DNA of 64,000 nucleotides, taken from NCBI GenBank assembly GCA_905160935.1, contig CAJHZI010000414.1, forward strand, positions 1,637,501 to 1,701,500. Reading direction: 5' to 3'. Below are positions 1-51,786 of the stretch, in pieces. Origin of the DNA: Enchytraeus crypticus (taxonomy: Eukaryota > Annelida > Clitellata > Enchytraeida > Enchytraeidae). The position numbers were made by a program, and so were the translations under genes. How positions within the stretch are numbered: the stretch's first letter is position 1; every line of letters begins with the position of its first letter. The notes under the pieces were generated by a model. That model was not told the DNA's origin and made no database searches. It saw only the letters and a list, made by a program, of their open reading frames with translations.

Positions 1-170
1 GGTTGACTATAAACGGCGAGCCTGGACGCCCTCCTGGATCCGCCACTGGCCACTGACTAACTGACTGACTGACTGACGAATTCCTCTTCGTTAACAAAGT
101 TTAAAAATTGCATAGAGATTTTGAAGGAGGGGCAAAGTCCCTTTGGCACCCCCTGAATCCGCTACTGGTT
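1..170 (-). mobile_element. Two short DNA-transposon-like ends
   Basis: Two imperfect copies of the same terminus lie in the same orientation, ending at about 51 (GGATCCGCCACTGG) and about 168 (GAATCCGCTACTGG). Read on the minus strand they begin CCAGTGGCGGATCC and CCAGTAGCGGATTC, which resemble hAT-type terminal inverted repeats. No transposase and no opposite end are visible; the window edge cuts the region. The assignment rests on this terminal motif only. Confidence 0.3.
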
Positions 171-559
171 AAAAGTGGAAACTATGATAAGCTCTAGTTT
201 GAGTCGTGTAACAGAGAGTACAAGAAAAGTTGCTATTTCTGTAGATCTACAATTTTGATTACGTTTCATGCAGATAATATAATCTATTCCTTTTATTTCC
301 ATAATCAATCTGACAAACCGCTGACTGTAACAATATGACAGATAACATAGCAATGCATCAGATACAGGCAGAAATTCAACACAAAATCAAAAATGCAAGA
401 TTGAAAATTATAAGATAACATTAAAAAATATTGACCAAGGCAAACTTATCCTACTTTAAGAGTTCTATAGTCACATATAGCTAAGCATTAGTAAACAGTA
501 GTAGAAAACAACTTCAGCAGTTTAAAACAACAGGTAGGCATTGTAAGTTAAACGTTAAT

Positions 560-1690
560 AATTTCTAGCATCTTCAAGTATAATACGGGTAATAAAGTTC
601 TTGTCACTTTAACTATTGCGTCTAGTAGGAAGTGTGAAATTTCTACCGGCAACGTTTCGTCTAGTTAGATATGGGTGATGGGCAAGCGTAGGCAAAAGCG
701 GGGCAAGTAGATGGGCGCTATCACTATGTACATTTTTTAAAAGTTTAGAATCAGGTGAAGCACACAAATCTTCAAAACTGGATTCCAAATTGCAGAAATT
801 TGCCTTTTTTAGCTCGTCTTAAAAAGGCTTCAAGTCTCTTTCTATCTTCCATAGTGGTAAAATCCCACCAAAATTGGGATGCATAGAGAAGCCTATTTAA
901 TGTAGATGCTTGAAATACTCTCTGAATGAGTTCGTTGGATAGTCCTTTAGTGCGTAGACTATACAAAGCAAAAATATTGCTGGAACTTGAGGATAAGAGA
1001 TTATTTATGTGAGTAGAAAAAGAAAAATTGGAGGAGATTGTAACACCCAAACATTTCATATCTGAGACGCGTTCTATGCCTTCAAGATGAGGTGCTGCAG
1101 AAGCCTGCCTCTTATTATTTGGGGAGTGGAATATAATTTCTTTAGATTTTATTCTATTTAATTTTAGATTGTTAATTTTGGCCCAATATAGGCAAGTTCG
1201 ACTTCTGTTAGATGAATATTGGATGCAGGCATAATTAAGTATGTGTCATCAGCATATTTAAGTAGCGAGTTTGATTTACTCAAGGTCTTGAGATCTGATG
1301 CTGTAACAACGAAAGCAGGAGGTCCAATGGAAGAGCCTTGAACTACGCTAGCATTAATTGTTGCACAAGAAGTATGATCGTCAAAAATTGTCCGATGAGA
1401 GCGATTAGTTAAAAAAACTAGCAATCCATTTCGTTACAGGGCTTGGTATGTCTAGCGAGCTAAATTTATCAAGCATGTGCGAATGTCTGACAGTGTCAAC
1501 GCTTTACTAAAATCTAGAGCAATCACTCTGACAAAAGGTTGTGGTTCTAGTAGTGAACTTATAGTATGAAATAGAAATATAAGCAGCAGTAGTAGATCCA
1601 GTAGGGCGAAAAGCAAATTGATTAGCAAAATCAAGATGAGAGGGTGGAGATGAAAATGCTAGATATGAATCATCATCTGCTTAAGAAAGA
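560..1690 (-). mobile_element. Degraded non-LTR retrotransposon (reverse transcriptase part)
   Basis: Translating the minus strand in shifting frames gives reverse-transcriptase motifs in order: ALDFSKA (about 1535-1500), QGSSIGPP (about 1350-1325), LKYADDTYLI (about 1270-1240), then MKCLGVTISSNFSFSTHI and the post-RT region (about 1060-770), then a C-terminal tail with HHPYLTRRN and FTLPTRR near 640-690. The reading frame is broken several times, so this is a dead, 5'-truncated copy. The motif style matches elements usually annotated as jockey-like; the clade is not certain. It lies in the probable intron upstream of the 3343 exon. Confidence 0.8.
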
Positions 1691-1949
1691 TTTATATATA
1701 TAGAGTTTTGACAATAATGTGACAATAGCAAAACTATTTGTCAAACAAAATAATAAGATAGAGATTATTTTGAATTTATTCTATGAAAGGTCAAAGTAAA
1801 CCTATACATAGCAATTGCACGTTAGGTTTTGCTTTAACAATTTCATGCACACATATTTGAAGGAGATGCATGTAAGTTCATCGGTATTTAGTACGATCAG
1901 CGTGAAAACGTTAAGATAAAAATAAAATATAAAAAAATCTAATGTTAAA

Positions 1950-2056
1950 TTCAATTTCCTCACTAGAAAGCGACGTCAGTGACGGGCGAGACCAGGATTT
2001 AAACCCCGCACAAACTGATCCGCGGTCGAATATCTTACCGACATCGTCACTGGCTT
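1950..2056 (-). repeat. SINE-1 copy (tRNA-derived)
   Basis: One of about ten copies of a 110-140 bp dispersed family. Read on the minus strand it starts GAAGCCAGTGACGATGTCGG, runs through a B-box-like segment (GGTTTAAATCC), and ends in the conserved tail with CTAGTGAGGAAATTGA. See 57086-57236 for the best copy. Confidence 0.7.
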
Positions 2057-2168
2057 CAGTAATTTTTTAAATAAAAATAACAACAGTATACATACAGCAT
2101 AAATAATATAACAATATTATAAACACAACATAAATAACAATAGTATAAACACAATTATATATTATAAA

Positions 2169-2177
2169 TTACAATAG

Positions 2178-2220
<43 letters not shown>

Positions 2221-2238
2221 TATATATATATTATATAT
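2169..2238. repeat. (TA)n microsatellite
   Basis: About 70 bp of nearly pure TA dinucleotide inside an AT-rich stretch with ATAAACACAACATAAATAAC-type low-complexity repeats (2060-2310). Confidence 0.9.
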
Positions 2239-2684
2239 AAGAATTGTTTTTATACTCTACACAACATAAATAAAATAACAATAATATAAACACCACATAA
2301 ACAATTTAAATAAAGCAACTGGATACTGTTGTTTCTCATATATATGAAGTTAGACGACCAAAAGAATAATACTAGCGATATATAGAATACATAGGCCTAC
2401 TGCATTCATTACAATACACGGTGATAGGCTATTGAAGCCTACAACGTCAGGTTAGCAAAGCGCACACAGCTCGCTAAAAACACGCTCATCGTTAGTGAGA
2501 AGAGTTACAACCTTTTCTACGAAGCCTCACATGCTCGCGCTTTAATTGCCTCGACGCTGACTCTGTGAAAGAGTCAATCATCGCTGCTTTGAGCGAGACC
2601 CAATGGCTTTCAACGAACCTGTGAATCGACAAGACATACAAGTTAGGCTACCGCTGATTGACTGGGAGGTCTCAGTGTCAGTGT

Positions 2685-3042
2685 GTCTCGTGGAGTCAGT
2701 GATTAGGAGATCACGTGGTGTCAGTGACTAGGAGATCACGTAGTGTCAGTGACTAGGAGATCACGTGGTATCAGTGATTAGGAGATCACGTGGTGTCAGT
2801 GATTAGATCACGTGGTGTCAGTGACTAGGAGATCACGTGGTGTCAGTGACTAGGAATCACGTGGTGTCAGTGACTAGGAGGTCACGTGGTGTCAGTGACT
2901 AGGAGGTCACGTGGTGTCAGTGGATCACGTGGTGTCAGTGACTAGGATGTCTCGTGGTGTCAGTGACTAGGTGGTCGCGTGGTGTCAGTGACTAGGTCAC
3001 GTGGTGTCAGTGACTAGGAAGTCACGTGGTGTCAGTGCGTCA
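2685..3042. repeat. E-box-bearing minisatellite, 24-25 bp unit
   Basis: About fourteen variant copies of a unit close to GTGTCAGTGACTAGGAGATC plus ACGTG. Eleven copies keep the palindromic hexamer CACGTG, in the context TCACGTGG. The array ends about 300 bp before the splice acceptor of the 3343 exon. Copies differ by small deletions at the AGGAGAT segment, while GTGTCAGTGA is nearly invariant. Confidence 0.95.
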
Positions 3043-3342
3043 GCCGACTGTTTAAAGGCAGCCCATGAATATTGACGATATTCGTTTCGATTGAATTCAG
3101 TAGTTGTCAATGAATATTAACGATATTTAATTCTTTGAATTCAGTAGTTGTCAATGAATATAGACTATATTCGATTGACAATTCTGTAGTTCGTAGGAAT
3201 CTCAGGTTTAAGAATTTATAATTCTGGATTACAAGGAATACAGAATTTGCTTAGCGTCGTATCTATTAATAGAAAATAGATGACAATTATTGTGTCACTT
3301 TTTGTGTAATGTGCGTATATTTACGTGTTATTTGATTTACAG

Positions 3343-4514
3343 GACCAGTGAACAGAATATCAAGATCCGCGGAGTATTCGGAGTCCAGACTGCAACCGTT
3401 CTTCAGCAAAAGATCCTCGGAAGACACCAGACTGGGATACTTACAGGAAGTGCCCACTTATCCTCTCGTACCTGAACCGAGAAGATGGCATGACTTTTCC
3501 AAAACTCTGTTGCCATCTAATGGAACCCAAAACTCCACGACCAACGGACAGATTTCCACAACTGAGATGAGATTGGACACTGGTGCTGGACTATTCGCTG
3601 AACCTCAATCACGATCCTTCGATGTCTTTCACGCTCCCTTATCAACACTTAGGTCATCATCAAATCTAAATATGACTAGCTGCGAGCATCTTAAAAAGGA
3701 AACTACTCGAGATATGAATGAAATAGGAGATGTGTTGGCTACAGATAAGCTGTTCGGAGAAGGACTGAACCCAGGGAGGCAGAGTGCTTTCAGCTCTCTA
3801 AGATCCAGTGCTTCTAGGCTGCACAATAATCAGGCTTTTCCGTACCCAGCCTCAGGTATATTTAGTAGACAGAAACTCGAATCTTCATTATACTTACCTT
3901 TATCGCAAACACCCACGTCATCGGAGACACTCTCTTCCCAGTCAACAACTGCTGCATCATTGACGTTGTCACAGAGTTTGATGACATCATTTGATCAAGC
4001 ATCCTCAGCATCTACAACCTTGCCTTCACCTGGCTGCACTGCATTTATTAACTCCCTGTTCGCAACCACAGATACATTCTCTGTAAAGCCATTCCCGACA
4101 TTACAGTCCAACCATGCGAAAATGAGCGATGACCCAGTAAACAAACCAGTCTTCGGTGGATATGTAGTACCGGCAAGCGGTGAAAGCTCATTTTCTCAAA
4201 GGTCAAACAACAAAGGATCAAGCACTTCAAACGGGATGATCAGTTCAAATGGTAGCATTGAAGATTTTAATTTCAATACTGTGTTTGATACGATGGGATC
4301 CTCGCTCTCACTAAGCGGCACAGCCAGAAATATGGACATGACTGCCTCTGTATATCAACCAGTTTGTACCGGATGGCTGTCTCATTTGGATGAATTAGTG
4401 GGAGAGTATTCAGGGATGGGCAGAGAGAGAAAGGAAATGCAGAACGGCGCTACAGCTTCAACAGTGTGTCATGGAGATCTTACAGAGTATGGTTCTCTAT
4501 GGAGACCATATTAA
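3343..4514 (+). CDS. Terminal coding exon ending WRPY, probable RUNX transcription factor (partial)
   Basis: The exon starts after a good acceptor (TTGATTTACAG, ending at 3342) in phase 2, so its first complete codon is CCA at 3345. It stays open for 389 codons to the TAA at 4512-4514. The product is Ser/Thr-rich and low in structure, with no catalytic domain, and its last residues are GSLWRPY. A C-terminal WRPY is the Groucho/TLE-binding tail of RUNX proteins. The exon also begins with a split codon then Pro, compatible with the Gly-Pro that follows the Runt domain (inference). The DNA-binding Runt domain is not in the window; it would lie in upstream exons left of base 1. Possible polyadenylation signals follow from 5230. 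The alternative is another Groucho-recruiting factor, since Hes/Hey proteins carry related tails. The exon itself is well supported by length and splice site; the family name is moderate. Confidence 0.6.
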
Positions 4515-12779: not shown

Positions 12780-14990
12780 ACCTCTGACTACCAAGAAGCT
12801 TAAGAAGTCTAACCCTTGGTACACTTCTGATTTGAGAAAGCTAAAGGCTGCATTCTGTAGAGCTGAAAGAAAGTGGTGTCATACACATTCAGATTTTTGG
12901 AAAACTGTTTCTAATTTGCAACACAAGATTTATCGTACTGCTATTGCTAATGCTAAGAAAGAGTACTACTCCGCTTTGGTTAGTAAGGCTGTGAATGTCA
13001 AGAGATTGTGAAAAACCGTTACTGATCTTTTACATAGATCTAATTCTCCTTCTCTTCCTTCTACTCCTGTTGAGTCACTGCCTCAACAATTTTCCAATTA
13101 CTTTACAGATAAGATAAACAATCTTAGAGAATCTATCACTCCACCTCCTAACTCTACTCCTCATACTCCAGTAGAGAATCATTCCAAGGAAGAGCTTTCT
13201 AATTTCACTCCAGTTACAACTGAAGAGATTACTAAATTAGTTTTAGACTCTCCAGCCAAACATTGCGACTTGGACCCTATCCCAACCTCTCTTTTAAAGA
13301 AGTATATTCACATACTTGCTCCTGTATTAACATTGATTGTTAATCTCTCTCTCTCTCTACTGGCATATTTCCTCGCGCTTTTAAGCGCGCAGTTAATACT
13401 CCATTGCTTAAAAAGCCCACACTGGATAAGGAATCATTGTCGAATTACAGGCCTATATCTAATCTGTCATACATATCTAAACTCACTGAAAGAATTGTTC
13501 TTCAGAGGCTTTCTACTCATCTCTCTTACAATGATCTATTTAACAACTATGCTTATAATAAGCATCGTTCAACTGAAACGATGCTTCTATCTGTGTGCAA
13601 TTCTATTGTTAATGCCATGTGCACGCAGCGCTTAACTGGATTATGTATGCTTGATCTTTCGGCCGCTTTTGATACCATTGATCACATATTCTTCTGGAAC
13701 GTCTTTCTTCCTGGTTTGGTATTCGTGGAATTGTTCTTGATTGGTTTTCCTCCTATCTGACGGATCGTTCTTTTAGTGTAAAAGTGATGGAGTACATCTC
13801 TTCGCCTTCTCACTTAAAGTACGGTGTGCCTCAAGGCTCCGTTCTTGGTCCTATCCTCTTTAACCTCTATACAACACCCTTAAGCTCTCTAATCTCTTCT
13901 CATTCTCTTGATCATGAACTATATGCTGATGACACTCAAATGTACACTTGTTTCTCCCCTAACTCCTATTCTGATTCTGAAACCTTCCTGCAACAAAGTT
14001 TTCAGTCTATATCCTCTTGGATGTCTGCTAATTTGTTAGTACTTAATCCATCTAAGACTGAATTCTTGTTGGTTGGGACACCTCAACAGCTTCTGAAGCT
14101 GAATGGGAAAACTCTTTCGTTATCTTCGGATATTAAAATATCACCTGTGTCTTCCATGAGAAATCTCGGTATTATCCTTGATAAACACCTAACCTTCCAC
14201 GAACACATAACTAAAACTTCACAAGCATGTTTCTTCCATATCTGTGATCTTTGTCGAATACGTCCATATTTGTCACATGAGACAGCTTCTACAATTGGTG
14301 CTGCTCTTGTGCAATCAAAGTTGGACTACTGCAATTCCCTGTTTTTAAATCTCCCTGGCTGTGAGATTGATCGGTTGCAGTTTGTACTGAATTCTCTTGC
14401 GTGAGCAATTTCTTGTAGTTCCAAGTACTCACATGTTACGCCTATTTTAAAGTCTTTACACTGGCTAAAGATTAAAGAGCGTATCATTTACAAAACAGCT
14501 TCATTAACCTACAAGTCCATCACCATCTCTGGACAAACTTGTATGTCTCACTTGATTAAAGTGATGCAGCCTGCTGTTACTCAGTCTTCTAAGTTAATTA
14601 CTCTTGTGAGACCTAGCTTACCTTTACGCTCTAAGTTTTCTAATCGTTCTTTCCAGCATGCTGCACCGCACATCTGGAATTCTCTTCCATCCAATCTTCG
14701 GAAAGCTTCATTTGAATCACATCGGCCTTTGCTTTCCTATGAGCTGTTCCATAGGCAGTTGAAGACCTATCTTTTCCATCTCTCTTTTCCATCCAGTGTC
14801 CATGAGCATCGGCCTGCGCTTAACCACCTTTTCTTTGACTCCCTTTACTTTGGACTGAATTTCCGGATTTTGGAATTTGCATCGTTTTTGGACCTTCTTT
14901 TTGCTCGCCGGCTTGATTTTTGTCTCAATAGTGCTCGATGTTGTCATTGATGACTGTAGCACTCTAATTGTTGTTGCTGTTGTAGGCTAC
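12780..14990 (+). mobile_element. L2/CR1-like LINE, 5'-truncated and frame-broken
   Basis: From about 12790 the frame gives the linker region of L2-type LINEs (NPWYTSDLRKLKAAF, KKEYYSALVSKA), broken by a TGA near 13009. The polymerase follows in shifted frames: SNYRPISNLSYISKLTERIV (13440-13500), KHRSTETML (13560), LCMLDLSAAFDTIDH (13640-13690), YGVPQGSVLGPILF (13820-13860), ELYADDTQMY (13918-13945), then SKLDYCNSLFLNLPG (14320-14360). After a stop at 14402 come LHWLKIKERIIYK (about 14457-14495) and the C-terminal AAPHIWNSLPSNLR (14660-14700). Frameshifts lie near 13365-13400 and 13700-13780. The 3' end (about 14820-14990) is repeated inverted at 15320-15475. Confidence 0.9.
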
Positions 14991-15315: not shown

Positions 15316-15475
15316 CGTAGAATAATAATAATAATAATAATAACAATTAGAGTGCTACAGCAATCAATGACAACATCAAGCACTATTGAGACAAAATCAA
15401 GCCGGCGAGCGAAAAGAAAGGCAAAAAACGGTGTAAATTCCAAAATACAAAACATCAGTCCAAAGAAGTAGACTT
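15316..15475 (-). mobile_element. Second copy of the L2-like LINE 3' end, inverted
   Basis: Reads on the minus strand as a diverged copy of 14840-14965, including CTCGCCGGCTTGATTTTGTC and GTAGCACTCTAATTGTT, and runs directly into (ATT)n at 15316-15340. The trinucleotide tail marks the 3' end of the element. Confidence 0.85.
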
Positions 15476-17550: not shown

Positions 17551-17712
17551 GTTTCAGGTGTTTTGCAGTAATTTAGTCATTTGCATCACTACTATAAGAG
17601 TCAATGTTCCTTCTGATTGTCTGATTTGTATTAATCTCTGCTGAAACCTTTGCATTGAGGGTGACTTTACAAAACTAACCAATTTTAAAATTAAGAGAAT
17701 CTAATTGTGGAG

Positions 17713-18141
17713 ATGAAGTTAGGACTTGGTGAAGCCAACATTCGCTTGATTGAAGTGCAGCCGCAGCCGTTAACCTGCGCTAGAGATCAGTTTCACAAGC
17801 CTAATGTTCTCAGCTTACCAACTGCTGTTAGACCTAAGGAAGATACCTATAAAATATTCAGCTACTGCAACACTACTGGAAGCAATTGCCCAGATGGAAG
17901 TGATAGCAGTGCTTGCATAAGTGGAATTTTGGAAAAGTCATCACCCAACAATGCTGGTGCGAAAAAGACGATGTCACGTCGAAATGCCTGGGGGTGTTTA
18001 TCGTACGCAGATTTGATTGCTCAAGCCATTGAAAGCGTGCCTGAGAAACGATTAACTCTTTCACAAATCTATGACTGGATGGTCAAAAATGTTCCGTACT
18101 TTCATGATAAAGCAAAGTCTACTAATTCAGCAGGATGGAAG
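17713..18141 (+). CDS. foxo: foxo exon 1 (first coding)
   Basis: 143 codons, ending in GWK of the forkhead domain at the donor AAG/GTTTGT. The exon probably begins in 5' UTR at 17558 or 17569. Confidence 0.93.
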
Positions 18142-19984
18142 GTTTGTTATAAATTGCTATATGATTATTATTATTATAATTTGAAACCCAGCCAAGCAGA
18201 AGCAATTTAAGCGTATATATATTCATATACAAAATATTAAATTGCTTCCACTTGGCTGGGTTTCATATTATAGATTGAACCTATACTGATCAAAACCCAT
18301 TTTAAATGTGAAACGTGATTCTAACACTGTTAAATATTGCATTTTAAAGCCATCTTTTTTGGTATTTAATACCCTTCATTTAATAAATATAGTATAAAAT
18401 TGTTTCACTGAGTATTCTGTAAGTTCTCTTTTTAGTTAAAACTTTTCTAGTAACTTTTGATCTTACTATTCTTTTTGCAGTTGTTCCTGATCAGTTATGT
18501 ATTAATTTTTTAATATACCGAGGTTTGAGCTAATACTGTCTAGTCTAATCTTTCTATTTTGTGCAAACTTTATTTTCATTACCTATATGTGCAAAAACCT
18601 TTTCGTCATGCAATTCAATATAATCCAACAATAGATGTTTTCAAAATACCAAAAAAAGTAGTTGAACACTGTTTGATGTTTTGTGCAGAATTCAATTCGC
18701 CACAACCTGTCGCTGCATCGACGCTTCATGAGAGTACAGAACGAAGGATCTGGCAAGAGCTCGTGGTGGGTAATTAACGAGTCCAGCACGTCAACGAGAC
18801 GTTACCGGCACCGTGTAGCAACGAATGGACAGGAACCTTCAGAGAAGAGGCGGGCAAGAATGAGGAAGAAGAATGCTGTCGGCGACTTTGACAACGGGCA
18901 GTCAGCCAACATTAGACACTTTACAACTGATGAGACAATGGGTCCTCCTGCTTATCATTCTGTTTCGCCATATCTACTGATGGGTGGTGGTGATGCCAAT
19001 CGAGGCAATGCTGCTTGCGAGCAGACGTGTAGAACGCAGGGGATTTACTTCTCTGATAACAGAATGTCGATGAATCAGTACTGCCATGAATCTGGTTCTC
19101 TAAGTGACGGGATCGATCAACCGGCAAATAGTAGCTGTAGTTACGAAAATTCCATGTCAGTATTTAATGGATTTGATGGCTCCACAACTAGCAAGTCGTC
19201 TTGTCAGAAGACAATTCGTCTGCCGCCTGCATCTGTTCTACTTAGCCCAACTTCTTCACAGCGGCAAAGTCTTCAATTTTCGAGTGATAACACACTGCAA
19301 CGTGTCAAAACTATTCGTGTAAATTCCGCTGGAGCACTTAGCGAGACTACTTCAAGTGGCTGCACGCGAGAGGAATCAAATGAAGAAGATACTTCAAATC
19401 TTCTACTAGGAGGAATATTGTACAATGCTAGAAATCAACTGATTGAAGACAACAATTCATTTTGTTGCAGTGACTTGTTAAGGCAGTCTTTGTCGCAAGA
19501 TGGCACGAATAACACTGCGATGGCTAGTGGCGATACTAATATGTACTCATACAACACTGTCTTCTCACCCGTGCCAACTCTCGATGATCCATACTTTATT
19601 GCTCACAGTGATGCGACTGAGATATTGGAAAAAGCTAGCCAAGGAATCCTACGTAGTTTCAGCGATTGTGGATATGGTACTGGAGGAAATGGATCGGAAG
19701 TTACTAAAATGGAAATCTGTGCAAGCAACAGCTTGGTGCTTCCGACAACTGAAAGGAATTATGCGCAGAATTCATCAGCTCCTGTTTTGTTTTATAAGAA
19801 CCCCAAGCACACTAACGACCCAACGGCTGTGGCGCCCTACTGCGGCACTTCCTCTAACATTGATTCAACGTCTTACTGCCCGGATATGAATTCGTACGAG
19901 AGTGAAGTAACGGTTGCTACAAGCATTGGGGATGGGGAGGAGAATGTAATGCGTAAAGCGGCAGATGATGCTAATAGGCTGTGA
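17713..19984 (+). CDS. foxo: FOXO forkhead transcription factor, two coding exons
   Basis: Coding exons 17713-18141 and 18689-19984 join in phase 0 (429+1296 nt) to give 574 residues. The forkhead domain spans about residues 91-174: [34 protein letters not shown] and [12 protein letters not shown] are diagnostic for the FOXO class, which regulates stress, metabolism and lifespan genes downstream of insulin/PI3K/AKT. The intron falls between GWK and NSIRHN, the classical FOXO forkhead intron position. RHRVAT (residues 183-188) sits where other FOXOs carry the second AKT site and fits R-x-R-x-x-T. The usual N-terminal RxRxxT is not seen in the first 40 residues. The rest is Ser/Thr/Asn-rich with a possible activation segment (SDLLRQSL). 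The start is the first ATG after an in-frame TAA at 17692. The donor is GTTTGT; the acceptor is TTTTGTGCAG. Confidence 0.95.
18175..18271. repeat. Hairpin (MITE-like) in the foxo intron
   Basis: A near-perfect inverted repeat with arms of about 35 bp (GAAACCCAGCCAAGCAGAAG and its complement CTTGGCTGGGTTTC at 18251-18264), with a 26-bp AT-rich loop. It starts about 34 bp after the donor. Outer bases (TATAATTT / ATATTATA) extend the pairing. Confidence 0.9.
18689..19984 (+). CDS. foxo: foxo exon 2 (terminal)
   Basis: Begins [20 protein letters not shown], finishes the forkhead domain, then basic RRYRHR and [10 protein letters not shown] (likely nuclear localisation) and the long disordered C terminus. 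Stop TGA at 19982-19984. Confidence 0.95.
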   Translation, partial: NSIRHNLSLHRRFMRVQNEGSGKSSWWVINESSTSTRRYRHRVATNGQEPSEKRRARMRKKNAVGDFDNGQSANIRHFTTDETMGPPAYHSVSPYLLMGGGDANRGNAACEQTCRTQGIYFSDNRMSMNQYCHESGSLSDGIDQPANSSCSYENSMSVFNGFDGSTTSKSSCQKTIRLPPASVLLSPTSSQRQSLQFSSDNTLQRVKTIRVNSAGALSETTSSGCTREESNEEDTSNLLLGGILYNARNQLIEDNNSFCCSDLLRQSLSQDGTNNTAMASGDTNMYSYNTVFSPVPTLDDPYFIAHSDATEILEKASQGILRSFSDCGYGTGGNGSEVTKMEICASNSLVLPTTERNYAQNSSAPVLFYKNPKHTNDPTAVAPYCGTSSNIDSTSYCPDMNSYESEVTVATSIGDGEENVMRKAADDANRL

Positions 19985-22837: not shown

Positions 22838-23562
22838 GTCATGCGGAATCCATTACGTGCCTGTGTGTAATAGGCTGTAATTACGTGCCTGTGTGTAATA
22901 TGCTGTAATTACGTGCCTGTGTGTAATAGGCTGTAATTACGTGCCTGTGTGTAATAAGCTGTAATTATGTGCCTGTGTGTTATAGGCTGTAATTACGTGC
23001 CTATGCGTTATAGGCTGTAATTACGTGCATGTTTGTAATAGGCTGTAATTACGTGCCTGTATGTAATAGGCTGTAATTACGTGCTAGTGTTTAATAGGCT
23101 GTAATTACGTGCCTATGTGTAATAGGCTGTAATTACGTGCCTATGTGTAATAGGCTGTAATTACGTGCCTGTGTGTAATAGGCTGTAATTACGTGCCTGT
23201 GTGTAATAAGCTGTAATTATGTGCCTGTGTGTTATAGGCTGTAATTACGTGCCTATGCGTTATAGGCTGTAATTACGTGCATGTTTGTAATAGGCTGTAA
23301 TTACGTGCCTGTATGTAATAGGCTGTAATTACGTGCTAGTGTTTAATAGGCTGTAATTACGTGCCTATGTGTAATAGGCTGTAATTACGTGCCTATGTGT
23401 AATAGGCTGTAATTACGTGCCTGTGTGTAATAGGCTGTAATTACGTGCCTATGCGTTATAGGCTGTAATTACGTGCCTAAGCGTTATAGGCTGTAATTAC
23501 GTGCCTGTGTGTAATAGGCTGTAATTGCGTGCCTGCATGTAATAAGCTGTAATTACGTTGCT
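22838..23562. repeat. 28-bp minisatellite with 252-bp higher-order period
   Basis: About 25 copies of a 28-bp unit (AATAGGCTGTAATTACGTGC plus CTGTGTGT). A block of nine variant units, recognisable by AATAAGCTGTAATTATG and GTGCTAGTGTTT variants, appears at about 22951 and again, in the same order, 252 bp later at about 23203, showing a block duplication. Confidence 0.97.
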
Positions 23563-29612: not shown

Positions 29613-30025
29613 ACCTACCTGATTGTTGGAAGACTCTGCCTCAGAAGGACCTCTGATGATCCTGGGGGACACACTCTTATCAACCCTGCTTGTTGACGGT
29701 GATCGACTGTTCGCGGGAGAGTTACAGATCGACTTCTCTGCGACCTTCAAAGCGTCGAAGTTGATCTTAGCAGCGAACTCGTCGCTAATGCTGCGCCGAG
29801 GAGCTCTCTTTTTTATTCTCTCCGCATGTGACCCTTCTTCCACCAGCTCTGAGGCTTTGTTCCTCTTACCCACCACTCGGTTACTGCCCTGCATCAAAAT
29901 AATGATTATAATAATAATATTATTGTTATTTATAATAATAATATTATTGTTATTAATAATAATAATATTATTGTTATTAATAATAATAATATTATTGTTA
30001 TTAATAATAATAATATTATTGTTAT

Positions 30026-30062
<37 letters not shown>

Positions 30063-33000
30063 TTTTTTTTTATACCCCGGTGTAAAGAACCTGGGGTTTG
30101 ATAAAAACGATTCAAGCAATACGTGCTGAATCGCCGCCCGGCTACTCGAGGTCATCAATCGGCTTAAAAGAATTGTTGAAGCAGACTGCATGAAATCTTT
30201 GCAAAGTCATGGAAAGCCTTTGCCAAAGAAAAGATGTCTCTCGCTTATCGCCGGTTTGCTCTGTGATAAGTCTGCCTATGCCATTAATAAAGTCAACTCC
30301 TTCGGGATTCATCGGGCCCATGGTTTCAATGGCCACCGGAACAACTTCATATCCTGAGGACAGATCTCGGTATTTATCCAACTTCCTAGAGGCGGCATGA
30401 ACAGCAGCTCCATCGGCTGTGACTGAAGTCGTATTCAGGTAGGAGTTTGCCATAGTGTCAATGACCGTGACGTCCCATGCGGCACATTTACCGTTGCACC
30501 AGGGCACTAAAGTCAGGCTGTCCGGACGCTTGCCGTCTGATCTGGACAACCCACTTGGTTCCTTAGAGGAAGAGATGCCTGCTCTTGAAAGTGCTCGCCA
30601 TATTAAGTCATTTAAATTGTGATGGCGAGACATTCTACCTGTGCTTCGTTTGCAGGAGAGGCCGTGGAGACCTAAAGCGTCGACTTCAGGACCGCAGGGG
30701 CACATGTGAGGCTCGCAAGTTTTCGCCCCTAAACGGAAACTAACGGCTACTCGAATCGCCTCATTGTCTAAAAAAGCCCATAAGAAGCAACAGGGAGAGC
30801 GTGAAGCCAGTCACTGCTTCTTTTGATTGATACAGCTAGGAGTCGTGCTCTGTCTACTGCATTTTATTTTGAATCTAACAGACTGTTGTAAATCCGATCC
30901 ACTATAGGACGGTCCCATGATTTCTGGTTACTGACTGAGGTAGAAGGTGGAGCACTAGATGTGAGGCATTTGGACCAAACTGACAGCGCAACGTCAATGG
31001 ATCTATCGGCAGAAAGGGAGCACTTATGTAGGATGGCGTCTTGCAACTGCCTCGTTCCCAGCGCTGATGCCAAGAAGGCTGAAGGCGCGATATGGGAAAC
31101 AAGACGAATTCCAAGACCACCCTTGCTCACCGGTAGACTGGCTTGCTGCCACTGCAAATCAGACAAATCTGCGTTGATTACGGCGCACAAGCATAGCCTA
31201 AGAGCCTCGTCGTAGTCTAAAAGACGCGGATTAGAGAAACTCGGACTAGAGCGCAGAATGTGCATAAGTTTAGGTGCACTTAATGAAAAGCGAAGGATTG
31301 TCAAAGCATCATAAGCGGCTAGCGACTTCAAGCGCGATGCTGTACGTTTGACATCCTCCAAGCGGCTAGATAAAACGGTGGTAGTAGCTTCTTCTCCAGA
31401 GAGTGGCGCGCCGAGTAGAGTACTATGGGAGAAGCCCATTGGCACAAAGGATTATTATTATTATTATTATTATTTTTATTAATAAATAAATTTACTTTAA
31501 CTTTAATTTTTTTAATAGAAATTTACGCCTTGCGTTAAAACAATCGCCTTGACGGTGTAAACAATACAAAATAATAATAACACACATTATAGTGAAATGA
31601 TCAACTATGTTGATATCTATCACTTTTAATACCACATGTTATATCCGTTAGGCAATTTAGTCCATTTTCCGTGTAGCCAGGCCAGTGAATGTCCGAGATT
31701 ACTCTCAGATCAGCGCGGCTGGGATTCGAACCCACGAGAGTTCGATTCACCTTTAGGTCTGTCATTTAAAACTTCATGACGTTATCTACACCCTTAACCA
31801 TTGCGCTATCGAGACATTCAAAAAAGCACATCTGTATACATGTATACCGCATGTACAAAGGCATATCTGATCGGATAATACATACGTAGGGAAGTATTTG
31901 CAATTTGCTTGGCAAATGCAATATTATGTCAAGGACACAGCTATTTACATTTTCTTCAATCAAGTAAATTCTATTCATGGCTTCAATTAACCTAGACCGC
32001 AGCTATATTTAGAGTTTTATTAGTAAGAACTAGAGACATACTGCATGAGCGCCTGACACTCGGCTTATCACGTGACACATATTCCACTTCCAGCATCCTA
32101 CTCATGTTTCCTTTCTTCTTATTTCTCAATCTTTGCTCTCCTTAATTAAGCGAGCGGCACTCCTTAGCACTCATTCATAGCTGCCGCAATGTGAGTGACG
32201 CTTTAGAAGCCAATTTATTCATATACCACTTCAGCAATTCCGTCATTGTCTGTAAGTATGCAGTAAGAATGACATACCAGCTTACACTCTCGCGGCTCTC
32301 ACCCTTTTCACTTTCCTTTCCTACTCTCTTTCTTTATAAATTTGGTCCAACCCTATGAGCTTCGCTGGTTTTTACCGTCACTAACTTTCGATTTAGGAAA
32401 CTGACATTAACACTAACTTTATCATTTTTATAACTCTCTCTTTCAGTGCATTGCCTGCTGGCAAGTTCATGGTATATAACGACTCTATTCATCTCTATCT
32501 TCCGTCTTTCTCTTCATGTCCACATACGAGTGGATCTTTTAATTAATATAACGTAACTGTTGGTATACCATTATTCTTGGGGGATTCGGCTTTTGACGAG
32601 GTGAGCCCCCTATGCCTTCCTCAGCTTCGACTAACCTTTACTGGGCAGGGGCGTCATTCCCTGAGAAAAAGAATCCTGTTTACCCATTAATGACAGATGT
32701 TTTTGTAACATCTGTCATTATTAACTTATTTGCTGCATTAACTTATTTAACATGCCTACAGAGCGGGGTGACAAAAAGTTTGTCATCAATTTGTTTTTGA
32801 AACGTGTATTTCTGTAGCAGTGTCATGGTCGCTGATCGGTCTTCGAGACTTCTTAATTGAGTCACTAACCTGTTTGATATTACACGATTTAATTAATTAT
32901 TGTATAAATTACTGTTTAACGGCTCATTTGTGAGAATTAGGTCATGTCTTAATAGCGTAGAGGTAACGTCATGAAGTTTTAAATGACAGATTCTGAGGTG

Positions 33001-33584: not shown

Positions 33585-36500
33585 ATGTAAAGTATATCTA
33601 TGTATATATGTAATGTATATGTAACTGTTTTGTCATTATCTCTAATTAGAACTCTTCATATTGTTCTGACGTTCAAATATTTCTGAAATAGCCGCAGCAG
33701 GCACGCTGAGATCTAAGCTCTGTACGGCTCATTACTGTGATTAGCAGACCTGCTGGCGTTGCCGCTTGCAATACCTGATTGGTGCTGCGAGGTTTTCTAT
33801 TTCTGACTAATTTGTGACTAGATTCTAATTTTAGAAGCATTTATTAGGCCGACAACGCTAGAAATAATTATATTCCGTTTATGATGCATGCTATGAAAGC
33901 TGTACTATGGTATCCAGTCGCTGCTTGTCTTAGAGAGTGATGATTTGTTTTCAGAATGATCCGGGAAAATAAGAAACAAATCAATTGAAAAATGCGCAAT
34001 TTGATGCTGAATGACACAGATAGCCTAATGAGGAATTGAATAATGTCATGAGTCAAAAAATTAAACGAAAATTAGCTGGAGAACTTTCATTTAGATAAAT
34101 CCTAATGGTAGTAAAATATTCTTTAAATATTCTTAAAAATGTACTAGTACCAAAACTATACTGATTCGCAGTAGTAAAATACTAATAAGTGTCTAGTAGT
34201 AAAGTACTAGATTACTAGTAGTACAGAGTGTGCTAAAATAAATTTGTTTATTTTATTACTATAAAGTAAACACGTGATCATCCTAAAGGTTCATTAATTC
34301 TACAAATCTCCAATAAAATCCTTGAAGCTTTTGTTCAAAGTTCACACACTGTTTAGTGTTAGATAGCGCTCAGCTTTACTGAGCGAAACTGAAGATACAA
34401 GTAGAATATGTGTCTTGAACCTGTCGCATTAAACGGGGGCAAAAGAGAGAAAAGAACGAAAAATATCGAGAGAAAGTGACAAAGCCTACTGATAATAGGT
34501 CACAATCCTTTAATTTGCGAAATAAAATGTCATCAGACTTAATTCTGAATCCGGCTGGCCATGATATTTTTCACGAAGCCAACTCAATTGAAACTGTTAA
34601 TTATAATGAACAATCAACCCCTCAGAAGGCTTTGACAATCAAATGAAGTATAACTGTAATAATAATAATAATAATAATAATAAAGGTTTAACGTCCGTTT
34701 CCTCATCCAGGGATGATGTCAGGGACGTCCCCAACAGCACACATCACTACAGATCAATTAACCCAGACCAATCTGCAAAAGAAATGTGCTGAGGAGAAGT
34801 AAGGTCCTAAACGAAAGCCAGTCCGGTGATCAAAAATGGTCACGGTAGATTGATTATGTCTACGGTGGGAAAACGTAAGTCTTAAGCTTGTTAGAGAATG
34901 TTGAAAAAGAAGAACAAGAGCGAAGATTAGCAGGTAAAGAGTTCCAGATAGTGGGTGCTGCGTAAGAAAAAGAACGTCTGCCCAATGATGTGAGAATATT
35001 TGGAACAGAGAGAAGATTGGCATCGGTGGAACGAAGTGAACGTAAGGGACGATAGGGGAAGAAGAATTTCAGATAAGTAAGAAGGTTTGCCAAATCGCAG
35101 AGTTTTGAAAAGAAGAACACGATTTAATAAATAATGCATTAATTAAATATTACATTCTGTCTTATCACTGAAGGCATTCGGTATTTGAATTAAAGTGTCA
35201 TAATAAGGTCCACTTTGATCATAATATTTTAAAAACATTTATTTCCCCTTTTAATAATATTTTATAGCATTATCAGGCTTCTCTCTCCATATAGATTGTC
35301 ATACGTGAAGACAGAAGGTAGGCATGGGAAAATAATATTGAATATGTCTTCTAAATGAGATTTATCTTATAGGCCTACTGCTGGAGCCAGTGGCGATGTC
35401 GGTAAGATATTCGACCGCGGATCAGTATGTGCGGGTTTCAAATCCTGATCTCGCCCGCCATTGACATCACCTTCGAGTGAGGAAACCGACGTTAACATTA
35501 GCTTTTATCAGCTTTTGCAAAATTATCGACATTTTCAGCTACTTTTCTATTAAACACTGAATTCTAAAATCATCATTTACTATAAAAACGTTACAGTCGA
35601 TCTAATCGACGAGACTTACCCCTCTACGCAGTCTTCCAGTGTCATCCACGTCCACTTCCTCGTTTAACCCAGGAGTGTCTACTCCCAGACTGCGAGCACC
35701 AGGCGTTTCCTCCAGGCCGTGCTCCTCCTGGTACCTGTGAAGTCTCTGGGCGAGCAGGTGGTAGATGGCGGTAGCACTGCAGGGAGCGTTGGCGGTGACG
35801 AGGCGATGAACCTCTCCAGGCCTGAAGTCGAGCCTTGTGGTCATGTGCTTGACGACGCTCTGGAGGAGATCACTGGACTGAAGTCTATTGGGGTATGGAA
35901 TCCGATGAAACGGTTTGGTTTTACCTGTCAATCAATTGGTCGGTAAGGTTGTAAAGCCGATGTTAACGTCAGTTTCATCTCACGAAAGCTATATCAGTGA
36001 CAGGCGCGCCCAGAATTTGAATCTATACGTACGGATATCTAACCGACATCGCCTAGGCTCCAGCAAGTCGGTCAATAAATTGTCTCAGTTAATCAGTAGG
36101 TCAGTAAGTCAGTCAACCAATAAATTAAAATCAATTAATCAATTCGTCGTTCTTTCAATTAGCCAATAAATAAATCACTAAACAAATGAGTCAGTCAGTT
36201 AATCAATCAATACATTAATCATTTGTCAGTTAGTCAATCGGTTATTCACGTCATTTAATATAGTGATTACTGCTTTGAACTGGCTTAGTTTCTCGGTAAC
36301 TGAATTTGCATACAAAGTTCAGGAAAAGCAATAATATAGTTTTAGATACTGAGATATTAGAATAACTGATCTAGATGCAAACTCAGAAGCCATAACCAAA
36401 TGATTGGAAATGAAGCCGAATAAGTTTAACACATGGCTTACCTTCAGTGATCCACGGGTGTTGCATGGCTTCCTTCAACGTAATTCTCTCTGCCGGATTT

Positions 36501-37491: not shown

Positions 37492-40400
37492 AGACTGGGG
37501 CAAAGAAAAATAATCCCCTAGCGCAATCTCAATAACTTTAAGACAACTCAAAATATCTTTACGAAATTTACGGAGCCTCTAGAGGAGAAATTTATGCGTA
37601 TATCCTGCAAATTTGGTTAAAATATCTGCATTAGTTACGAAATTACAGCATTTCTTCTCGAAAAGTGCTAAAATCAATTTTAACAAAGCTTTTTGAAATG
37701 TCAGTCGTTCTTTTTAAAGAAAATAACGACCCTGAAAAGGGCCGTTTACTTAAGTAGTGGAGTATATGCCTGCACTACCTTGTTAGCTACTCTAATAAAA
37801 GATGCTTACAATTCGTTCTTCTGTTTAAATTTTTCCTAAATTTTGAAAAAAACGTTGCAATTGTTTAAGTAAGCCTTGTTAAAATTGATTTTAACATTTT
37901 TTCCGAAGAAGCGCTTTATTTTTGTTACTTCTGAATATATTTTCACCAAATTTGCAGGATATATGCAGAAATTCCTCCCTTGGAAGACCCGAAAATCTTG
38001 TAAAACAATTTTGCGTTTTGTCCAAGTTATTAAGACTTTTGGTAAAAAAGCCTTGTTAAATTTGATTTTTGTACTTTTTTCCTAGAAACGCTGTAATTTT
38101 CTTACTGCTCAATAGAGTTTCATAAAATTTGCAGGTGACTTGCAGAAATTCCTCCTGTAGAAGCTCAAAAAATTTTATACAAATATTTTGAGTTTTGTTG
38201 AAATTATTGAGATTTCGCTAGGGGATTATTTTTTTGCCCCAGTCTGTATATATATATATGTACTATGATATACTATAATATACAATATAGTTAAGTGAAA
38301 ATTCAGCCGATGCTAGCGACAGTTTCGTCTTTTAATTGAAAGCGATAGTGACGATGAGCCTAGTATTTGAACCCACACATACTGATCGGCGATCGGAGGT
38401 CTTACCCATATCGTCGCTGGTCGCTTCCAGTGACGATATCGGTCATTATATTATCGATATCGGTCTTATCGATACCATATGCAGCTTAGCTTGGGAAATT
38501 ATTACTTCTGCGGTGGTTTCCCGTTATCTTCCTTAGATCTAGTTTAATCGCCTCTTACGCTATTTACAGTTAACGATTAATCTATTCCTCAATGACGCGG
38601 ACTCAATGACGGGAAACATCTAAATATCATCAAGGAAGACTAACATGCTCCAGATATCAACTTTAGGTCCATAACGTCCATTAGCCAGCAGCTCAGGGGC
38701 AGCATAGGCGGGACTGCCGCATTGCGTTGAGCACAGGTTGTCCTTAACGCCATCATTCCCATTAGCTTTAGTGCTCTCGGATTCAGTCACAGGAAGTCCA
38801 TTTTGTTGGGACTGATAAGTGGCATCCACGCTGTGATCGTAATTATCTGACGTCATTCGTATCGAATTACTTAATCCGAAATCTGTATCAATCAATTAAT
38901 AGTTAAATTATTTTACTGATGTTCAGTCAAACATCAAACTTACTGTCAATCCCTTAACTCATTCACTATCAAACAGTAAGTCTCTTATCAATCAGTATCA
39001 ATCAATCTCTTATCAATCAATCTCTTGTCAATCAGTATCAATCAATCTCTTATCAATCAGTATCAATCAATCTCTTATCAATTAGTATCAATTAATCCCT
39101 AATCAATCAGTATCAATCAATCTCTTATCAATGAGTATCAATCAATCTCTTATCAATGAGTATCAATCAATCTCTTATCAATGAGTATCAACCAATCTCT
39201 TATCAATCAGTATCAATCAATCTCTTATCAATCAGTATCAATCAATCCCTAATCAATCAGTATCAATCAATCTCTTATCAATCAGTATCAATCAATATCT
39301 TATCAATCAGTATCAATCAATCTCTTATCAATCAGTATCAATCAATCTCTTATCAATCAGTATCAATCAATCTCTTATCAATCAGTATCAATCAATCTCT
39401 TATCAATCAGTATCAATCAATCTCTTATCAATCAGTATCAATCAATCCCTAATCAATCAGTATCAATCAATCTCTTATCAATCAGTATCAATCAATCTCT
39501 TATCAATCAGTATCAATCAATCTCTTATCAATCAGTATCAATCAATCTCTTATCAATCAGTATCAATCAATCTCTTATCAATCAGTATCAATCAATCTCC
39601 TATCAATCAGACCGATTGACTCATCAATCCAGTATAACATTAGAAGCGTCTAGTAGAGGGTTGAATGTTGTCCTGTAATAAATTTAATTTCCTTTATTTA
39701 CACATGTAATTTATTTAAGAAGATGATGCTGAAACAGATTATTACTTATTTAATTAATTATTAATTTATTTATTATTTACTTAATTTTTAATTTCTTCAA
39801 CTAGTGTGAAGAAAATCTTTAATGGGGTGCCAGACAATCTGACATTGCCCATATATTTGAAAAATAGAAGACTGTCTCACATTGCGCAAATGTTAAGCGT
39901 AAATAAAATATAATGAACTGTGTTATTCAGTTTAGTTCATTCGAGAATGACATATTTTAGAAATCATTTCCTTAAGCATCACAAATCAGGCCTTAAGCTT
40001 GCAACGACATTTATATCTGAAGATAAATGTCAGTCAGAGTTTCCTCTCAAACATCATGATCTATAATTTAAAATTCCATGAACCGAGCTGAATAAGTCTG
40101 ATACAACGCACTTCCATCATCACAAGAGTCATGATTATAATTATTTAGTTATGAAAACTACCATAAAATTCAATAACAATTAAACAATAATCGTGTTTAA
40201 CATTGTTTTATGTTTCTACAGATGCCGTCAGAGATGGTCTGTACGAGATTTGAACCCCGAGGTCCTCTGCCGGTTAGTTAACAATACTGCGCTAACTATT
40301 CAACTCCGATATACAAAGGTGCGATTGCAATTATTTTACCATAGCACCGTCGTATCTTATTTACGATTCTTTTAAAAGATCGGTTGGTTTATTTGATGAT

Positions 40401-46400: not shown

Positions 46401-49400
46401 TCTTGCGGAATGTTTTTAGAATCACGAGAAAATAATCGACAATGGCAGTTGAAAAAATAGAACAATTTTAGAGAATATATAAAAAAAAAAAAAGATTTAA
46501 CGATAAAAAGTAAAACAAATGATTACTAAGTATTATTATTTACATATAATTTTTATTATTTTTTTTTTTTTATATTTTCTTTAATCTTTATTTCTTTAAC
46601 ATTTTTATTTCTTAAACAACCTGACAAGCGGATTATTGTTATATTTCTACTCTCCACTCAGGAATGTCATGTAGTTAAAAGTGCAAAAAGGAAACAAAAA
46701 AACACTGTAATTAGAGTTGCTAGGTGCTACGGAAAAGAGTTTTCGCTTAACTAGCTAGAAGTATTATTAATTAATTACTTTTATTAATGAATTTAAAAAC
46801 TTATTCATGAATTTACTACTTAATTATTATGTATTAATTTTATTACTATAATTTAAATTGAAGTTTATAGTAATAAGAAAATACAATTATTGTTATCTAA
46901 TTATTATTAACATATTTAACATTAATATTTTTAACATCATTGTTAACATTGTTGTTAGCATTATTAAACGTATTATTATTGCAGTTATTATTTCTTCTTC
47001 TTATTATTATTGCTATTTATTACTATTATCACTATTATTATTACTACTACTATAATTTTTATTACTTTTAGCTCTGTTAAAACCAACCGAGGTTTGAATA
47101 GAAAGGGATCGAGCAATACGTACTGGCTGAATCGCCCGCCCGGCTACTCGACGTCATCCAATTACTTATTATAATTATTTGCATTTTCATTATGATTGAT
47201 GATTATGATGATGTTGATTATTATTGTTATTATTATTACTATTATTATTATTAAAACAACTACTACTACTATTGGCATTACTATCGTTATTGCTCTGTTC
47301 CATATACCTCTTACAGTTGGTTCGTTGTTAGGAAGAATTCAAATTGATGCAAGGTCACGTATTGTTACTGATAGATAATACTACAGCGTGTTACTAGGCT
47401 GTGCTAAGGATGTCAGGTGAAAGCTAATCTGCTGCATCTTACGTCAATGCCATGCACGCCCTGGAGGCTGGAAACTGTTACCTAGCGTATCACAATTTCT
47501 CTCCTTCTTTAATGTAATTCCCGTGTAGTTGTCGAGTCAGAAAAATGGAGAATATATCTGCCGAAAACTGTTTCTAACATAATTCTTAGGAGTCATCATA
47601 TGCTGATGCTAAGGCAATATAACGATATCTCCGTTTGAAGTCTTTTTCATAGCTAAACGGTGTAATTACTAGTGCAGATAAGGCACTGCTGCTATGCTCT
47701 TTGCTACATCCTCGTCTGCCTTTCACACAATATGCCCATACCATCTCAATCTCGACTGAGCCAACCTATCCCCGATCCCCTCAACATTCAAATTCATCCC
47801 CACATATTTATTTTCCATTCTGTCCTTCCTAATTCTTCCACACATTTGACGCAGCATTCTCATTTCTGCCACATGCAAACTCTGTAAATGTTCCCTTTTT
47901 GTGTCCAACATTCCGAACCATCATCATTACTCTCCTTACCACAGAACTATAAAATTTGCCTTTCGGTCTTAGTCTTAATGTAAGGTAATAGAATAAAATC
48001 AATAAATGCAGAAAACGAAAGTTGAAAGAATGAATAGTGGTAAATTACTTCAAACCAATTTTATTTAATTCACATTCTTACTTTGCGTCAATGTTCGCAA
48101 ATGATATTAATGAATCAATGGGATGTTGTATAACGGAAATCCGACCTGGATGAGTAATTTAATAACATCCCTTCAGTGCATCCATCACCTACATTACCGT
48201 CCTCGCTGCCTCGTGGCCTTGCGAGATGGCTTCAATATTAACGATTTCTACTAAAAGTCATCATGAAGTTCTCTGCAAAAGTATCGATGTCTCGATCAAA
48301 AAACAATTCAATCTCCTCTGAACTATTTCAAATATTGTTTTAAAATGGACATTAATAGCATTAAATTATGTCCTGCTTTTTTCAGGAAAACACTATAATC
48401 ATCTCTCTCTTAGTGCACTGCCTAATGGCAGGTCCATGGTATATAACGCCTCCACTCTTCTCTTCCTTATAGAAGGATAAGTGTGGGCACATGGAATGTG
48501 AGAACTGTGGGTGACTATAATCATATAGCTTACATATTTCAAATTTGGTTACTTAGGTACGGTATCAGTTAAATGAAATAAATCTTCCAGTTTGAAGTAA
48601 TAGTAGTAGGACATCAGAGTTGTTACAGTAAATGAAAGAATAAAAATGTCACCATTGTGTTGAGTTTTTGGAAGTGTCGACCGTTGCAGAAATTTGAACT
48701 CTTAATTTTAATTTAATTTGTTTTATTTTGTTTTTCTAACACAAACTGGCGACTCTCAAGCCTCGAGCCATCGTTAGTTTATGTAGAAAATGCACAGCAG
48801 TCAGCTTTATACTGTATTTAATGGATAGTTTCTATTGAAAAGGATATACAACATACACTAAAAACATATTTATTTTAACTAACTTGAAATCTCTCAATTG
48901 TTTTGTGCATATCCACTGACGCAAATGGAATCAAATGTTCTATGAAGCGAAAATGAAGGCGGATAATTAAATTACGCTAATGTTTCTAAAGCGGGGGAGT
49001 ATTTGCAAGATGTTGTACTAATTTAAGCTTAAAGATCAAGACGTTGTACAAATTTAGGCTTAAAGATTAAAGTAGAAGCTCGTTAATGCATCGCCTAAAA
49101 TTTGGCAACGGTGACTGAACCTCATAAGTTTTAGAAAGAGTTTTCACTTAGAGTTTCAAATTTACCGAACTATACTTAAAAGCATTAATTTTTACCAAAA
49201 ATACTTTTAAATTGACTCCGCTTCCTGCTGAATTTTCATGTCCTGACTCGCTAATGGCGTAAAAGATGTGATGTCTGATAAAGTTAAGGCGAATGGTAGA
49301 GGTCACTGTACGCTCAGCCTGGCAAACATGTTTTAGACATTTCTTGCTCTGATGACAGGCTATCCCTGAATCACTCCCTGAAGCATTCGTTACGCCCAAG

Positions 49401-51754
49401 ATCTGCATAGAGACGAACTGATCTCTTTCTATCTCTTAGTGCCCTGACTACTGGCAGGTCCATAATATATAAAGCCGCCACTCTTCTCTGTCTTCCGTTG
49501 TCCTATTCATGTCCATATATGAGTGGATATTTAAATCATCTAACATATCTAATCTCGGCCTGCCTCCGTCTCTATTTATGCTGTGATATACCATTCTTTC
49601 TTGGGGGGTTATGCTTTTGACGAGGTGGGCCCCTATGCTTTCCTCAGCTTTGACTAACATTTACTGGGCAGGGGCGTCATTCCCAGGGAAAACTATCCTG
49701 TTTACCCATTGGAACTGGTCTAACAATTCTATTTACAGAATTTTTTGGAATTAGTACCATATCTCTCCTTACAGTCACAATTGCAACACATAGAGTTACA
49801 ACATCGAAGAGAAAGTCCAGATCTTAATTATATCCCAATCAAACTTTATTACACAATCTAAATTATTCTTAAGACTAATCAGCGAAGCATTTATAATTTC
49901 ATTATTCGAGATATATATAACTCTAAAATCGTTTGAGAAATAAAAAATTTATCATTTCTCTTACTCCGTGTTAAGTGTCTTACTCCGTGTCAAGTCATAT
50001 TATATCCATGAACTCTCAAAACTAATGCATGATAGATATTAAGTTCGCTCAGGTTTTAGCATCCAATATACATAACACAAAGGTCATTGATCTCATGCGA
50101 TTGAAATGATAAAATACAACAAAAATAGAAAAACAGTACAGAGGAGAAAATGGAATAAAAATGGAAATCCGCACAATGGCGAAACTAATTAAAATCAATA
50201 TAATCACAAATGATTAAGCAGATTGAAATAGTACTAACACCTGGTCACACTTTCTGATTTGAAGTTATTGATTACTGAAAGATGGATGGCTAACTATGAA
50301 TCTTAGGACTATAAATACGACATGGGATTATCCCGTTTAAGTCGCATTTCATTCGTAATATGCCTAAAACTTGTTTCTAGCCAATTTAAATACTTTGTAT
50401 GTTATATACTCATCTAAACAAGATACACACATGAGTGTTGAATTATAAAAAAAATCATTAGAAAGCCCATTATCTTGAAGTAAAATTACTGAATAAGGAA
50501 AACTATATAGAAACATTTTTGGCTTTATAGTTAAGCAAAATTCTTACGTCTTACCATGATTTGAAGTGCTATAAGGGGTAGATCGTTGCGTAGCATCGAT
50601 AGGTTAATTTGTATCAAGTATGAATTATTTTATTATACGTCTTAGACTCAGTGTTTTCAAAACGAAGAGTTAAATATTGATTTCGGTACTTTGTCGAAGT
50701 TTCCTTAAATCAAATCATTTTAGTCCATTGCCCTCTTATATAAGAACCTATCATCACTTAAAACTGCATAGATATTTTAAACTTAAAAGCTTACAGTTTA
50801 AAGCTGATGTTAACGTCAGTTACATATCTCGTAAGTGATATCAGAGACGGACGAGCCCATGATTTGAGCCCACACATACTGATCCGCAGTCGGGTACCTT
50901 ACCAACATCCACCTTGGATCCAGACAAGTTCATTATGCTATAAAATCTATAACAGTATTGCCGTTCATAGGGCTAAATTTAACGTCCGCTTTCTCACTTC
51001 AACAATGCTGTCAAAGACAGTCCTGCGCAGATAAACCTTACTATCGCACTTGCTTACAACAACTACGCATAGAATATCGCAATTATATATAAACTTGACT
51101 AACCTGTGCAGTATTCCGCCTCTGTGGAGATAATCCACCGCTGAGATGATTTGCCTTACGTATCTCCTAGCCTCTCTCTCTGGGAGACAGCCTTTGCTGC
51201 ATATCCTCGTCATGAGGTCACCCTTGCCGCAGTGCTCCATGACGAGATAGTAGCTGTTCTCAGTCTCCATCAGCTCGTACATCTGAACGATGTGTGGGTG
51301 ACGTACCAGCTGGAGTAGACGTCCCTCTCGACGCATGTTCTTACGCACGTACGGATCCTCCTTCGCCTTCTTCTTGTCCACGATCTTAATTGCCACCTAA
51401 TTTGTTGACAGAGAAGATAACAATATTAATGGGAATTTTAATGCTGCATTTTACTACTTAAGTAAGTAACAGCAACAATTAATAATAATATAATAAATTT
51501 TAATGGTACTATTTATAGCAAAATAAATATTTAATAGTAGGCCTAATCACAGTATGATATGATTAGTATGATTTACGACATCAATAATGTTCAAGTTAAC
51601 GAAATTTAAAATGATGAATATAAAAAGATCAACTTGGAATTTAAATGACTATATAGAAATAAGGCCTCTTAAAATTTATGAACTATTTATCTTGTTACTT
51701 TAACAAATTAAAATTAAAAATATAACAAACATAATTGTAAACTCTTTAATGATG

Positions 51755-51786
<32 letters not shown>

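Follow-up and report, generated by a model that had tools for sequence, protein, structure and literature searches.

We conclude, with a probability of roughly nine in ten, that a LINE family of Enchytraeus crypticus, about 3.35 kb long, with one reading frame of about 990 codons and a restriction-like endonuclease, is targeted to (TAA)n microsatellites. Three members lie in the window (the whole 64,000-nt stretch of DNA that was analysed), and TAA/TTA-type repeats flank each of them on both sides, as the earlier note had claimed, those around the third being rather degenerate. Copy 1 (30073–31452, minus strand) and copy 2 (51791–52371, plus strand) are 5'-truncated members of the family, corresponding to positions 1974–3354 and 2773–3354, respectively, of a 3354-bp long copy at locus L026. 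They share 96.6% identity over 591 bp, and their products differ at exactly the 11 of 163 residues counted previously. Copy 3 (47091–47158, minus strand) is a short, diverged 3' fragment with 82% identity over 68 bp, set amid degenerate TAA repeats.

Copy 1 is preceded by (TAA)n on the sense strand of the element (31453–31481, minus strand) and followed by an A-rich tail and TAA/TTA repeat (29898–30072, minus strand). Copy 2 is preceded by 13 TAA units with 94% matches (51747–51785, plus strand) and followed by an A-rich tail and TAA repeat (52372–52410, plus strand). Adjoining the 3' end of copy 1, a 24-bp tandem repeat at 29908–30051 mixes TAA and TTA units, and the target array there seems to have been rearranged. 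Copy 2 has protein kinase gene pieces on either side of it (50965–52765, minus strand), with a Pkinase match at 3.3e-25 on one side and a glycine-loop-like stretch on the other; it is thus probably within an intron, antisense to the gene.

The genome searched comprises 524 Mb in 802 contigs, from which 20 loci of up to 8.5 kb each were read. Four long copies (L009, L016, L018 and L026) begin at a common 5' end, some 2.0 kb before the start of copy 1. L016 and L018 agree at 99.6% over 4.3 kb, probably because a single locus was assembled twice, and L018 was left out of later counts. The single frame, running by arithmetic from about position 313 to about position 3285, was read from pieces, none of the four long copies having an unbroken ORF (stops or frameshifts in all). 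The deduced protein consists, in order, of an N-terminal zinc-finger-like Cys/His cluster, a reverse transcriptase (RT) with the motifs FVVKLDFCNAF, GVQQGDPLGPMLF and GYLDD, a knuckle and an endonuclease region. The RT matched Pfam RVT_1 at 3.8e-15 and five PDB entries at E values up to 1 (best 7.1e-6). Three of these are named R2, and the remaining two, 8gh6 and 8ibw, carry the title "Reverse transcriptase-like protein" and are presumably R2Bm. No APE domain was detected by Pfam in a 786-aa piece, so that RT is followed by an endonuclease region with no APE domain in that piece, as in restriction-like endonuclease LINEs. The PDB matches and the Pfam result are an indirect test of a further outcome envisaged in the earlier note, a grouping of the RT with an APE-type clade.

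In copy 1, one ORF piece (30864–31445, minus strand) covers the end of the RT (thumb) and a linker, near-identical residues following the RT core in the long copies. A second piece of 187 aa (30142–30705, minus strand) holds the knuckle and the putative restriction-like endonuclease. Within it are found i) the knuckle C-x-C-x9-H-x3-C (30652–30702, coordinates by arithmetic), ii) the endonuclease motif RPD-x15-D (30472–30528) and iii) KLDKY (30370–30384), all on the minus strand. The first two had been described in the earlier note, and the third, not listed there, corresponds to KxxKY, a motif described for restriction-like endonucleases of LINEs (PMC5678591). Both catalytic motifs of this class, PD...D and KxxKY, are therefore present. 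The CCHC knuckle is correctly placed before the endonuclease, with the spacing CX1CX9HX3C as against the CX2-3CX7-8HX4C described for such LINEs (PMC5678591). The endonuclease stretch gave no R2 match in PDB by sequence, its best local alignment with R2Bm left the motifs unpaired at a score equalled or exceeded by 166 of 1000 shuffles, and the motifs were misaligned in a global alignment. Assignment of this region as an endonuclease is thus a prediction from its motifs and position.

At the 5' end of the element, bases 4–10 can pair with bases 53–59 (7 bp). A search of one copy against Rfam, in which a fitting model may be absent, returned no ribozyme family up to E 10, and hence no HDV-like one. 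At the 3' end, all 24 distinct strings of the last 30 bases, representing 60 copies, fold into a hairpin at -3.9 to -14.7 kcal/mol (computed without a shuffle control), and the diverged copy L019 retains a longer 3' stem in which the bases have changed. By analogy with other LINEs, this terminal hairpin may be the recognition site of the RT.

Four clades of restriction-like endonuclease LINEs are mostly target-specific (PMC4640811). For the present family the earlier note had proposed the R4 clade, with Dong. We regard this placement, which concerns classification only and not mechanism, as possible but tentative. It agrees with the TAA repeats at the 5' junction of Bombyx Dong, likewise a restriction-like endonuclease LINE (PMC3774820), with the insertion of DongAg and DongBg into microsatellites (PMC3636483), and with a single frame in which the RT precedes a C-terminal endonuclease region. 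Non-LTR RTs share the motif AF/YADD (PMC3774820), in place of which the present element has YLDD. The 5' ribozyme possessed by Dong (PMC3774820) was undetected here by Rfam in the one copy searched. In addition, the first Cys pair of the knuckle is CPC, without Arg, in copy 1, L009, L016, L018 and L026. An Arg between these two Cys residues is conserved in many clades, such as R2, Dong, NeSL and Utopia, for which it is typical although not defining (PMC5678591).

A comparable candidate is HERO, whose members are also restriction-like endonuclease LINEs. Many of its families are non-specific, but some target microsatellites, including a leech family that is cited for such targeting (PMC4640811); the lack of site specificity in several HERO families is also recorded in PMC3636483. 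Both Dong and HERO were compared with the element by description. The claim that a LINE family equipped with an endonuclease has moved recently and uses TAA repeats as insertion sites is upheld by the results given below. Its assignment to R4/Dong stays tentative, the Arg of the knuckle being absent and HERO being comparable. The element may well work like Dong, the choice between R4/Dong and HERO having been weighed on descriptions of motifs and targets.

Among other known systems, R2 (R2Bm, R2Tg) shares the RT match and the PD-D and KxxKY motifs (KRNKY in R2Bm and KLDKY here), but its target is 28S rDNA, and R2Bm has KPD-x12-D where RPD-x15-D is found here. Togen, a NeSL/HERO-related LINE of fish, also targets microsatellites (PMC4640811), although these are (TG)n, Togen too being compared by description only. 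The available parts of PMC5035012, PMC7650587 and PMC10294476 held nothing that alters the clade placement. Our literature search, outside which most subscription papers fell, found among its hits neither a description of the present element nor a LINE with YLDD. By tblastn, no relatives were confirmed in 6 + 98 pattern-matching stretches of viral contigs and 27 of genome contigs. It is rather unlikely that the family constitutes a separate lineage of restriction-like endonuclease LINEs, with a YLDD RT and a CXC knuckle, outside the named clades and living on self-renewing TAA landing pads. If it does, arrays derived from the (ATT)n tails of other LINEs would be kept intact on both sides at each insertion, and young copies would accumulate next to older ones, all facing the same way. 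With its choice of site, the TAA-targeted LINE adds to a type of mobile element already described.

In the flank census, 69 copies were scored. They came from 47 sequences, namely the window, 19 read loci and 27 of the 30 loci obtained with the last 183 bp as query, the three omissions being L037 and L057 (the window's own copies) and L043 (overlapping L013). Copy 3, too diverged and short, was not included, and a few of the copies counted may have been fused or divided by chaining. A flank was scored as (TAA)n when at least three perfect TAA units occurred within 80 bp of the copy end. This was the case for 62 of 67 5' flanks (the 5' side of L036 and L058 being cut by the locus end), 57 of 66 3' flanks and both sides of 54 of 64 copies, compared with 0.84% of random points in the window and 3.3% in the other loci (5000 draws each). 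The remaining flanks (5/67 at the 5' side and 9/66 at the 3' side) failed the test and count against TAA as the target. Copies with at least 95% identity to the long copy had TAA in 54/56 5' and 54/58 3' flanks, those with 90–95% identity in 3/4 and 1/3, and those with less than 90% identity, which are few and fit less well, in 5/7 and 2/5, respectively. Contrary to one outcome envisaged in the earlier note, most of the sampled copies therefore do not lie outside TAA repeats.

The 5' ends of the copies are spread over positions 1 to 3255, with TAA directly at the junction in 36 of 67. Among 20 further full-length copies, taken from at least 40 matches to the first 240 bp, 19 had TAA at the 5' end, whereas the remaining one, L066, abuts an antisense piece of the element itself in a head-to-head junction. 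As TAA adjoins varied truncation points as well as these 19 full-length 5' ends, it is the target rather than a part of the element, which also disposes of the possibility, raised previously, that the 5' TAA belongs to the element itself. In several of the 20 full-length copies (L059–L078), TAA and the first base of the element are separated by a short stretch other than TAA, such as TGAAAA or TCAA, resembling untemplated additions at 5' junctions.

The 3' tail of the Drosophila I factor is templated or grown by slippage, and the TAA of the present family could in principle be made by the element in either way, the 5' TAA then arising from nesting beside older copies. Thirteen close tandem pairs do exist, and the TAA that follows the A-rich 3' tail could partly be element-made. 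However, beyond the 5' TAA the flanking sequence varies from copy to copy and is mostly not an older copy. Directly 3' of the element the sequence is A-rich rather than TAA: in the 56 readable cases, the tail between the element and TAA had a median length of 18.5 bases, and 869 of the 1141 tail bases are A and 219 are T. Moreover, unoccupied (TAA)n arrays are found at the ends of other LINEs (see below). We thus consider an origin of the repeats from the element very improbable.

Slightly less probable still is an unspecific or AT-biased insertion with survival or assembly of copies mainly in TAA repeats, for although only surviving copies are visible and the site of copy 3 is degenerate, survival would not pick a strand (TAA in 62 and TTA in 3 of 67 5' flanks), and 54 of the 56 copies with at least 95% identity have TAA at the 5' side.

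Targeting of (TAA)n by the element is also in line with orientation. The sense strand of the element carries TAA rather than TTA, with TTA likewise scored in only 3 of 66 3' flanks, and neighbouring copies within 200 bp had the same orientation in 13 of 13 pairs (p = 0.0002), as against 5 of 9 beyond that distance. Both the strand and the shared orientation are as predicted by target-primed reverse transcription at a strand-specific nick. In several close pairs a copy with 94–97% identity to the long copy lies beside one with 80–85%, and it is therefore probable that one array has been used at different times.

In 21 of 66 cases the 3' flank meets the end of another repeat, namely another LINE (20 cases) or a SINE-like repeat (1 case). 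In these cases a sequence resembling one or the other of two repeat ends occurs within 130 bp, always in one orientation and never reversed, compared with 56 of 2000 random segments for either strand. The commoner end accounts for 17 cases, of which 16 resemble the end of one LINE, and the other, at L016, is a tRNA-SINE-like repeat with a similar end. The LINE with the commoner end is related in its C-terminus to the LINE at 13270–14950 (score 115, with a maximum of 53 in 200 shuffles). The RT of the LINE at 13270–14950 matches RVT_1, and its 3' end is the second of the two repeat ends. Unoccupied targets were found at both kinds of site: (TAA)9 at 34657–34683 (plus strand) adjoins the (ATT)n tail, a landing site, of a LINE with its 3' end at 34684–35110 (minus strand, far end approximate), and (TAA)7 at 15323–15343 (plus strand) adjoins an inverted 3' end of the LINE at 13270–14950. 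The former LINE we take to be CR1/L2-like. LINE tails need not be preferred to other TAA arrays, since the commoner tail also borders 4 of the 28 arrays that lie apart from copies. GTTAACGTCAGTTTCCTCACT, or a close variant of it, occurs both in repeats resembling tRNA-derived SINEs (at 57920, 61915, 62510, 35476 and 57190) and at the 3' end of the LINE with the (ATT)n tail, and the two may form a SINE/LINE pair whose 3' ends correspond.

Insertion may proceed as follows. The protein would bind its own RNA at the 3' end, perhaps via the terminal hairpin. In a TAA array the endonuclease would then nick the strand that reads (TTA)n, and the 3' OH of this strand would prime reverse transcription from the A-rich RNA tail. 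Synthesis of cDNA would often halt early, yielding 5' truncation, and the 5' end would be linked to what remains of the array, a small number of bases often being added at the junction. With TAA left on both sides, the array would be usable again, and the (ATT)n tails of other LINEs could supply further arrays.

A 1-kb query gave at least 41 matches (1922 first-look candidates), the last 183 bp at least 40 (406 candidates; 12 identical to the query, its own locus included) and the first 240 bp at least 40 (146 candidates). When the three queries were pooled and matches within 4 kb merged, at least 116 distinct places were obtained. The searches went by similarity to one or two copies and so favour young members of the family. 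The 28 of 69 copies that covered the last approximately 930 bp well enough differ by 0.45–4.2% from the column majority, with a pairwise median of 2.9%. This low divergence reflects recent movement, in agreement with the earlier note. Variants private to one copy comprised 145 nonsynonymous and 40 synonymous changes, whereas those common to two or more copies comprised 24 and 23, respectively (Fisher p = 0.0004). The private ratio of 3.6 is above the no-selection expectation of 2.5 to 1, calculated with a 4:1 transition weight. The contrast between private and shared variants is the pattern of functional masters with decaying offspring, and reveals past selection on the protein.

Elsewhere in the window, a Forkhead domain is split over two ORFs (17707–18210 and 18683–19984, plus strand), and the domain is therefore probably interrupted by an intron, a position typical of FoxO. 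Tandem arrays occur at 22852–23558 (28-bp units), 39011–39610 (25-bp units) and 2689–3037 (25-bp units). In the genome, a 15.2-kb contig carries COX1 with 12 internal TGA codons, an 885-base piece of which is open under codes 4, 5, 9, 13 and 14. Under code 5, Met, Lys and Ser fall at several places where a solved COX1 has the same residues. The host is therefore an animal, with a possible resemblance to annelids, and its mitochondrial code is most likely the invertebrate one. COX1 pieces with stops on four contigs other than the mitochondrial one (C361, C424, C796 and C373) are probably nuclear copies of mitochondrial DNA.

With at least 116 copies at a simple, countable target, target choice by a restriction-like endonuclease LINE becomes measurable within one genome with respect to strand, register, array length and the use of other elements' tails. 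The family also indicates that the tail of one LINE can serve as the landing site of another.
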